From Prochlorococcus sp. AG-459-N19 (GTDB taxonomy: Bacteria; Cyanobacteriota; Cyanobacteriia; PCC-6307; Cyanobiaceae), in NCBI GenBank assembly GCA_003209375.1, contig QCRF01000002.1, positions 1 through 64,000 on the forward strand: DNA of 64,000 nucleotides, written 5' to 3'. The notes under the pieces are model-generated. The model was not told where the DNA came from, did no database searches, and saw only the letters and a program-made list of their open reading frames with translations. The translations under genes were made by a program, and so were the position numbers. Below are positions 46,583 to 48,564 of the stretch, piece by piece; position 1 is the stretch's first letter, and each line of letters opens with the position of its first letter.

Positions 46583-46664
46583 TGGGAGCGGTCGGACTTG
46601 AACCGACATACCCGAAGGTGCCGCATTTTGAGTGCGGTGCGTCTACCAATTCCACCACGCTCCC
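46583..46664 (-). tRNA. tRNA-Leu (anticodon CAA)
   Basis: An 82-base tRNA with a long variable arm typical of class II. The acceptor begins GGGAGCG and ends CGCTCCCA. The anticodon stem CCGCA/TGCGG carries the loop CTCAAAA, giving CAA for leucine. CCA is not encoded. argD starts 5 bases downstream on the same strand, so they share a transcript unless the gap holds a very short promoter. Confidence 0.97.
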
Positions 46665-46943
46665 AAGACTTTTGAAAAAATGAACTTTTTTATTATAACA
46701 AAAATCAACTTGTTGACTATTGTTTCGGTCAAGGAACAGTGATCAAGATTACGTTTGTTAATAGTTAATCTTTTCGATAAAAACATAGAATTATTTATTG
46801 CATTTGCTGACAAGAAATAAGGTGAAAAAAGAAAATTTAAACATTTATGATACATTTTTGTGATTAAACACGCTTAAAAGTCTTTTTAAAAGGCGTTAGC
46901 TTCATGATTAGTAATATTGTGTTATATTTGATAAAAAAAGCAA
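46665..46943. other. Intergenic region between tRNA-Leu and the micro-ORF pair
   Basis: AT-rich without a supported gene. A frame reading into the tRNA on the minus strand is not credible. A short imperfect inverted repeat at about 46870-46893 has no T-run fitting a terminator. GTTATATTTG at 46921 might be a -10 element for the following ORFs. Confidence 0.4.
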
Positions 46944-47051
46944 ATGTCTAAAACTCAAGCTAAAAAATTATCCCTTGAATTTGTCCCATATCTTTTTATT
47001 GCACTAACTATACTTACAACATTCGTATCCTATAGCGGAACTTGGGCATGA
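46944..47051 (+). CDS. Candidate 35-residue single-helix membrane peptide
   Basis: ATG at 46944 to TGA at 47049. A basic N-terminus (MSKTQAKKL) precedes a hydrophobic helix (FVPYLFIALTILTTFVSY) and a short SGTWA end. Such a shape is typical of small thylakoid-complex subunits, but it matches none I can name. The stop overlaps the start of the next ORF by ATGA, which argues that both are real. Confidence 0.5.
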   Translation: MSKTQAKKLSLEFVPYLFIALTILTTFVSYSGTWA

Positions 47052-47158
47052 ACGAATTCAAATTTAATGGTTTAAACAAAAATTGGTCAAATCGCTTCTT
47101 AGTTTTGTTTTTATTATTTTTGGGTTGTATTTCACTAATCAATATTGCTTACGTTTGA
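47048..47158 (+). CDS. Candidate 36-residue single-helix membrane peptide
   Basis: ATG at 47048 overlaps the preceding TGA, so translation would be coupled. A polar N-terminus (NEFKFNGLNKNWSNR) precedes a hydrophobic helix (FLVLFLLFLGCISLINIAYV). A signal of a conserved micro-operon is the overlap plus two matching topologies. I do not recognise either peptide. Confidence 0.5.
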   Translation: MNEFKFNGLNKNWSNRFLVLFLLFLGCISLINIAYV

Positions 47159-47193: not shown

Positions 47194-48564
47194 TTAAGCT
47201 ACTTCGAGTTTTGAAAAATCCTCAGCTTTAGGCTCAATTTTATATCCATTATCCTCAAAAGTATCATTACTTATCTCTCTAATAATTTTTACACCCAAAT
47301 TTTTTAGTTTAAATTCAAAATTTTCATAACCTCTATCTAAATGTTCTAATCCATAGATCTTACTAGTACCTTTTGCGATAATTCCTGCAATTATTAATGC
47401 AGCTGATGACCTTAAATCTGAGCCAACTAGATTCATCCCATTAATTGTTTTAACCCCTTTGATGTGAGCTACGTTTTTGTTTAGTTTTATACGGGCGCCC
47501 ATTTCATTAAGTAAATAAATATGATTCATTCTGTTTTCGAAAATTGTTTCAGTTATCTTGGATTCACCATTTGCGATTGTCATTAGAGCTGTAAATGGTG
47601 CCTGCAAATCAGTAGGAAAGCCTGGAAAAGGAGCTGTTTCAATATCTACTCCTCTAATCTCTTTACTCTTGATAGAAATCGAATTACCTTTAATCGTAAT
47701 TTTACTCCCACTCTCTTGAAGCTTAATTGTAACAGCCTCAAGATGATGAGGGATTACTGGAGAAATTGTAATTGAAGAGGAAGTTGCAGCAGCAGCTATT
47801 AGAAAAGTTCCAGCTTCTATTCGGTCTGGAATTACTTTATGGGTACATCCTCCAAGCTTATTAACACCATCAATAATAATTGTTTCTTTACCGGAGTCAT
47901 AAATTTTTGCCCCCATTTTATTAAGCATTTGGCATAAATCTTGAACCTCAGGTTCTCTAGCAGCATTTTCAATAGTAGTCCTTCCTTTGGCTAAAGATGC
48001 TGCCATTATTAAAGTTTCAGTCGCACCTACACTTGGACAATTTAATTTAATATGAGTGCCATGAAGTCTATTTTTGTTGCCCCTTGTTTTTGCCTTGACA
48101 ATTCCTTCTTCAATAATAATGTCTGCTCCTAATGCGATTAGTCCATTAATGTGCTCGTCTATTGGCCTTGAACCAATTTTGCATCCACCTGGTAAAGGTA
48201 CTTGAGCTTCTCCAAATTTAGTTAATAGTGCACCTATACAAAAGAAACTAGCTCTTAATCCTTTAACAAGTTCATATGGAAGTTCTTTAATCGAAATAGT
48301 AGTTGGATCTATTTCTAGTTGGTTGTTTTTACGAATTAAATTCACTCCTAAATTCTTTAGAATATCTCCCATCTTTTCAATATCAGTAAGAAAAGGTACA
48401 TTTTCAAGAATTATTTTTTCATTAGTTAGCAATGATGAGGCTAATAAAACTAAGGCGGAATTCTTCGCACCACTTATTTGAACTATTCCATTTAACTTGC
48501 CTTGGCCAAGAATCTTTAAATTTTGAGATTTAAGATATGACTTCGTTTTGCTTCCGCAAATCAT
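47194..48564 (-). CDS. murA: UDP-N-acetylglucosamine 1-carboxyvinyltransferase MurA
   Basis: A 456-residue MurA with SGAKNSALVLLASSLL at the start, the active-site region PGGCKIGSRPIDEHINGLIALG with the Cys that phosphoenolpyruvate and fosfomycin attack, and FPGFPTDLQAPF. It starts the peptidoglycan precursor pathway. The 18-residue N-terminal stretch before the conserved core is slightly long. Confidence 0.96.
   Translation of the reverse strand: MICGSKTKSYLKSQNLKILGQGKLNGIVQISGAKNSALVLLASSLLTNEKIILENVPFLTDIEKMGDILKNLGVNLIRKNNQLEIDPTTISIKELPYELVKGLRASFFCIGALLTKFGEAQVPLPGGCKIGSRPIDEHINGLIALGADIIIEEGIVKAKTRGNKNRLHGTHIKLNCPSVGATETLIMAASLAKGRTTIENAAREPEVQDLCQMLNKMGAKIYDSGKETIIIDGVNKLGGCTHKVIPDRIEAGTFLIAAAATSSSITISPVIPHHLEAVTIKLQESGSKITIKGNSISIKSKEIRGVDIETAPFPGFPTDLQAPFTALMTIANGESKITETIFENRMNHIYLLNEMGARIKLNKNVAHIKGVKTINGMNLVGSDLRSSAALIIAGIIAKGTSKIYGLEHLDRGYENFEFKLKNLGVKIIREISNDTFEDNGYKIEPKAEDFSKLEVA

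Follow-up and report, generated by a model that had tools for sequence, protein, structure and literature searches.

Do two overlapping micro-ORFs of a marine cyanobacterium encode proteins and, if so, what kind of proteins are these? The frames lie in a 64,000-nt stretch of Prochlorococcus sp. AG-459-N19, referred to here as the window; its genome (G000) is of Prochlorococcus type and 83% complete. A preliminary description had proposed ORFs of 35 and 36 codons joined by ATGA, each with a short basic or polar start and one membrane helix. Both frames, termed ORF A and ORF B, are present with this arrangement (Table 1) and stand alone on the forward strand between a tRNA-Leu gene and a presumptive murA gene, which served as a search query. 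No terminator was found at the locus between B and murA. The proposed topology was recovered for both peptides. Each begins with a short N-terminus of net charge +2 and contains a single hydrophobic stretch, whose best 17-residue Kyte-Doolittle mean is 1.95 in A and 2.75 in B, and single-sequence AlphaFold models show one helix in A (residues 4-33, mean pLDDT 80) and one in B (residues 3-35, mean pLDDT 89). B carries the conserved pattern GLNxxWSxRFL...GCxSLxNxAY. As the window contains 2364 stop-to-stop frames of at least 15 amino acids, short ORFs by themselves are no proof of genes, and conservation has to decide.

Table 1 Features of the A-B locus and its flanks, in window positions.
Feature	Position	Strand	Description
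Promoter-like block	46908..46928	+	TTAGTAATATTGTGTTATATT, with extended -10-like TGTTATATT; conserved upstream of A
ORF A	46944..47051	+	35 aa, ATG...TGA; predicted single helix; very probably a VPYxF-type micropeptide; MSKTQAKKLSLEFVPYLFIALTILTTFVSYSGTWA
ORF B	47048..47158	+	36 aa, ATG...TGA; predicted single helix; MNEFKFNGLNKNWSNRFLVLFLLFLGCISLINIAYV
ATGA overlap	47048..47051	+	start of B on stop of A; -4 in 68/70 distinct pairs
tRNA-Leu(CAA)	46583..46664	-	Rfam match at these coordinates; anticodon from ARAGORN on orthologous junctions; one flank of the insertion site
murA (presumed)	47194..48564	-	convergent with ORF B; other flank of the insertion site

Among 149 relatives, 72 carry A (E ≤ 1.1e-4) and 71 carry B (E ≤ 3e-9). 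These all belong to the same genus, and the sole discrepancy between the two sets is a genome (G090) in which A sits at a contig end. Profiles of A and B each matched 63 of 400 sampled family genomes (E ≤ 8e-17 and E ≤ 2.3e-18, respectively). Judged by comparing the lists by eye, these are the identical 63 genomes, out of 68 sampled from the window's genus, and in the 332 family genomes sampled from elsewhere neither ORF reached a convincing score. Homologs had been expected in Prochlorococcus and Synechococcus alike; the first part of this expectation holds, the second does not. The two pairs that deviate from the usual overlap have one of -10, where the customary ATG reads ATA and an in-frame ATG lying 6 nt further upstream is used instead. 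Other exceptions to an intact pair are few: B is frame-shifted in L007 and truncated in L077, A of L038 lacks an ATG where it usually starts, and G512 carries a stop within B. Pairwise dN/dS, computed over pairs with pS up to 0.5, was 0.20 for each of the two ORFs (69 distinct pairs), compared to 0.96 and 1.58 in the wrong frames of A and 0.93 and 3.50 in those of B, and variation was highest at third codon positions. A and B are real genes under purifying selection in a coupled arrangement. The overlap and the dN/dS values also support the earlier view that such a pair is unlikely to arise by chance, and the conservation in close strains on which that view depended was found.

The promoter-like block upstream of A corresponds to a GTTATAT-like motif (consensus AGTAATATTgTGTTATAtT) present in 64 of 69 distinct loci, 48 of which have 12-14 nt between the -10-like hexamer and the ATG of A. 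The block is unique in its own genome when three mismatches are allowed, and a promoter motif shared with other genes was rejected on this ground. A -35/-10 scan that returned six promoter-like sites, with 3.5 expected from shuffles, did not list it.

The flanking genes allow a view on gain and loss of the pair. tRNA-Leu follows murA in 21 of 30 inspected loci at a spacing of 20-285 nt, whereas the corresponding gap of the window measures 529 nt and contains A-B, which makes the pair an addition to this junction in a single lineage. Five genomes of the genus are without the pair. Three of them (G022, G471 and G517) also have no strong murA match; the stretch is missing from their assemblies, so they are uninformative on loss, yet they are rated 96-99% complete. 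In the other two, G521 and G527, murA, tRNA-Leu and argD are adjacent without A-B, with murA-tRNA spacings of 223 and 90 nt, which indicates that the pair is dispensable in some lineages. In a murA tree, G527 groups with the A-B-bearing G485 at a support of 100/100, and we conclude that A-B was lost in G527. G521 branches outside on a long branch (support 90/89); a gain of A-B after the split of G521 is likely, if not firm.

Profile searches of Pfam, NCBIfam, PHROGs and the PDB gave no convincing match for A or B. The best PDB match of A was patched (E 0.74), PsaJ of 8jw0 followed at E 1.5, and B retrieved nothing up to E 10. The preliminary description had likened the pair to small photosystem, NDH or cytochrome subunits. 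Small photosystem, NDH and b6f subunits and CydX are indeed like A and B in size and topology but show no sequence relation to them and have different gene neighbors, and the small photosystem, NDH, b6f and oxidase subunits in the PDB, Pfam and NCBIfam were unrelated to either ORF. Thus no known subunit family was matched, while the photosynthetic-membrane direction of that comparison gained support from A's family, which is Hli-coupled and, in phages, has several copies beside psbA (see below). Rfam matched only the tRNA near A-B, and no glutamine-II RNA. The peptide downstream of Yfr6/glutamine-II, also a short conserved Prochlorococcus ORF family, was rejected as a relative, as the 33-aa peptide after the RF01704 riboswitch is polar, unlike A. 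Scans of viral contigs with alignments of A, of B and of A with its host paralogs revealed no relative, and a tblastn search of 50,697 phage records with A and B as queries yielded only chance-like matches; a phage origin of A-B itself was rejected on these results.

The A profile weakly matched further conserved micro-ORFs in these genomes (first matches at E 0.035 and 0.053), namely a 33-aa MSKNNLYIPLKVVPYIF... and a 35-aa MDFISKKQGYVPLKLVPYIF... peptide. In tblastn against the same phage records, the MDF-type peptide retrieved 10 records at weak E-values of 1 to 3, all of them cyanophages and representing five distinct genomes, with the match inside or beside hli and psbA clusters (MKSVPVPLKVVPYIFMVAV... 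and similar peptides); the MSKNN type retrieved none. The chain from A through host paralogs to phages was followed via weak first matches and carries this ascertainment bias. Its members make up what is apparently an undescribed family of single-helix membrane peptides, mostly of 25-39 aa (one member called from the viral loci has 25 aa), which we name VPYxF after the motif PLKxVPYxF.

A shares with these peptides the length, the basic N-terminus and the single helix, with the K-x-[VIA]-P-Y-x-F core placed where that helix begins. It is likewise coupled to another short membrane ORF, although the partner differs in kind and place: B lies downstream of A, whereas Hli lies upstream of VPYxF, and A ends in GTWA/V. 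Alignment of the two profiles by hhalign reached 94.2% (P 1.1e-7, 24 columns). None of 600 permutations of the VPYxF core profile (200 full-column, 200 block-of-10 and 200 block-of-6) attained 33.1, the score of the unpermuted profile; at best, a block-of-10 permutation scored 27.9 at a probability of 92%, which means that the hhalign probability by itself overstates the certainty of the link. An HMM built from VPYxF peptides without A placed A at the top of the 2364 window frames (E 0.0017, against 0.66 for the next frame), as did a phage-only HMM (E 0.061, against 0.74). Against 30,000 frames, 30 of 61 A variants fell below E 1e-3 with the non-A model and 0 of 61 with the phage-only model. 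Judging from these comparisons, A is very probably a diverged VPYxF member.

The opposing reading, in which the likeness reflects convergence of short hydrophobic helices and A-B is a private pair of high-light Prochlorococcus, is unlikely in our judgment. It draws on the shortness of both peptides, on the weak first matches and on the part of the score that permuted profiles retain, but the match is centered on one particular string, K-x-V-P-Y-x-F, in peptides that agree in their basic start and in length, and neither the permutations nor the other window frames reproduce it.

A viral contig scan with alignment A4, whose pattern did not contain hli, gave 162 pattern matches, of which 87 were relatives and 80 were kept. 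These 80 loci are not independent and hold 39 distinct VPYxF peptides. In all 80, the VPYxF start overlaps or abuts an upstream short ORF, at -1 from its stop in 77, 0 in two and -4 in one. The upstream partner is Hli in 68 (called by a [TS]GQ-PG or TGH end, 65 by pattern plus three starting with GTG) and a micro-ORF of HGxxEFAFF type in 12 (11 by pattern plus L407). An hli motif occurs in the stored flank of 79 of the 80 loci and psbA in that of 47, including 9 of 11 HGxxEFAFF loci. Two phage genomes that add to the five above, S-SSM4 and S-SSM6b, have VPYxF as the last member of an hli-hli-VPYxF string in which each stop overlaps the following start. The listed CDS of seven named phage genomes, six from isolates and one metagenomic (metaG-MbCM1), do not include the VPYxF ORF in any case. 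At a dN/dS of 0.25, compared to 0.89 and 1.77 off-frame, the phage VPYxF frames are under selection.

The MTNFKSTINSIPPSMHGILEFAFFVAVGVAAGNMGWV-type (HGxxEFAFF) micro-ORF replaces Hli as the partner in L357 (P-RSM1), L358 (metaG-MbCM1) and L380-L390, and in 9 of 11 viral loci it precedes psbA by ~0.3 kb. All six members examined match phrog_17067 (best E 4.4e-11), a family of 33 positions without functional annotation and with no relation to A or B. In host genomes, an alignment of A with its paralogs found 3-5 places at E ≤ 0.01, including ORF A, in each of 16 genomes of the genus taken from a 251-genome sample. Eight of 23 MDF-type loci directly follow hli and 15 are solo. The zero-gap arrangement hli-TAA-ATG-VPYxF (...PGFV-stop-ATG) was seen at eight loci in 7 of the 16 Prochlorococcus genomes, including G015.

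What, then, is B? Hli proteins (one-helix, LHC-like) are short single-helix membrane proteins as A and B are, but they carry the chlorophyll-binding motif ExxNGRxAM and end in TGQxIPG, features that are also seen in the VPYxF partners. A and B are without this motif, and B does not have the TGQxIPG end either. The B profile compared at 1.0% to Hli and at 0.4% to HGxxEFAFF and showed no relation to VPYxF. A's partner is thus neither Hli nor HGxxEFAFF, both of which were rejected as relatives of B, and by these searches B appears to be without a known relative.

With these data at hand, we propose a two-gene transcription unit, A-B, in high-light Prochlorococcus, which would encode two single-span membrane peptides, probably with their N-termini inside. 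Through the ATGA stop-start coupling, one ribosome may make both membrane helices in a fixed proportion and in one place, as supported at the level of the DNA arrangement. The peptides would most likely assemble together in the photosynthetic membrane, A possibly as a small helix packed against its partner within a complex for photosystem protection or assembly, and B might hold the partner place that Hli has in other cassettes. As A's relatives are joined to Hli, we infer a helix pair in the photosynthetic membrane, together with a thylakoid location, a physical pairing of A and B and a role in photoprotection or assembly. The VPYxF-like peptide of G257 near an alternative-oxidase-family gene and an Hli-type protein (see below) also speaks for this reading. 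Since B is unrelated to Hli by profile, only the arrangement suggests a replacement of Hli by B. Some observations speak against the reading: A itself adjoins no hli or photosynthesis gene, the gene order differs, host VPYxF peptides of the MSKNN and solo MDF types are uncoupled from Hli, and some lineages do without A-B. On balance, we give an even chance to A and B being co-translated photosynthetic-membrane peptides, with A of the Hli-partner type and B as its own partner. Only tentatively do we extend this to the whole family, in which VPYxF would be a previously unannotated Hli partner of the marine cyanophage hli/psbA cassette with several copies in high-light Prochlorococcus, and A-B a host-only branch with B replacing Hli.

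Alternatively, A and B may serve a complex of respiration or electron transfer (cytochrome oxidase, NDH-1 or cytochrome b6f) as accessory single-helix subunits, CydX-like and functionally unrelated to Hli. Size, topology and coupling would fit such subunits, and VPYxF members gave a few matches, four of 27 to TIGR04561 (best E 0.025) and one to CbdX (E 0.038), all below a trustworthy cut-off. With no relation of A or B in the PDB, Pfam or NCBIfam, nearest neighbors that are murA, tRNA-Leu and argD, and a family that accompanies hli in phages, we hold this possibility to be a low one. That A-B acts as a small hydrophobic toxin or inhibits growth in another way is improbable. Both peptides are short and hydrophobic, and PMC2518516 discusses the Prochlorococcus RNAs Yfr6 and Yfr9 (33- and 44-aa ORFs) as possible toxin-antitoxin pairs; yet A-B consists of two coupled products of matching topology, genus-wide and with low dN/dS, no antisense RNA appeared at the locus in the promoter scan or Rfam, and the peptide of Yfr6 has another sequence, which looks soluble. 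That A and B are no genes but arose by chance within a conserved promoter or a structured RNA has a negligible probability. Short frames are common in AT-rich DNA such as the window, but the in-frame dN/dS, the third-position variation, the coupling kept in nearly all pairs and the presence of no Rfam family besides the tRNA contradict it.

If the family-wide reading of VPYxF as an Hli partner is true, Hli in these organisms would work as one half of a co-translated hetero-pair of helices rather than by itself. VPYxF would be an obvious missing component, as the micro-ORF starts on the hli stop in 68 of 80 viral loci; hli expression and Hli-only structural work would lack this partner, and A-B would present the same peptide type with a second, host-specific one. 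In the full-text literature searched, including PMC1242208, PMC2864571 and PMC3037559, we found no description of an Hli-coupled VPYxF peptide, although supplements may list single ORFs, and the string VPYIF is absent from these texts. The 113 new small Prochlorococcus ORFs of PMC2518516 and the two of PMC3898218 may include A, B or the VPYxF ORFs of G015. Hli proteins are a class thought to maintain photosystems under stress whose role in Prochlorococcus and cyanophages is still described as open (PMC2984593).

Several further loci were observed. A 137-142 aa ORF (L099 334-747, G072:C30) has a C-terminus, INWSNKFVVIALLVISAIALSKQAWI (INWSNKF...), that is weakly like B, at E 0.001-0.1 per genome in many genomes. 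The 33-aa VPYxF paralog MSKNNLYIPLKVVPYIF... occurs solo in the window's genome (L217 3278-3379, G000:C21) and in G015 (L379 1031-1132); it is near-invariant across the genus and has no coupled ORF. G264 contains identical hli-VPYxF cassettes ~98 kb apart (L362 and L363, C1:1056800-1058700 and 1154900-1156900), which look like a recent duplication. Finally, genomes of genus g95 carry a 26-aa VPYxF-like peptide, MKLVPYIFMAVAIFSEVSTIATTPII (L212 3331-3411 in G257), which in G257 sits between an alternative-oxidase-family gene (PF01786, E 2.2e-15) within ~1.2 kb and a gene for an Hli-type protein ~0.8 kb away.
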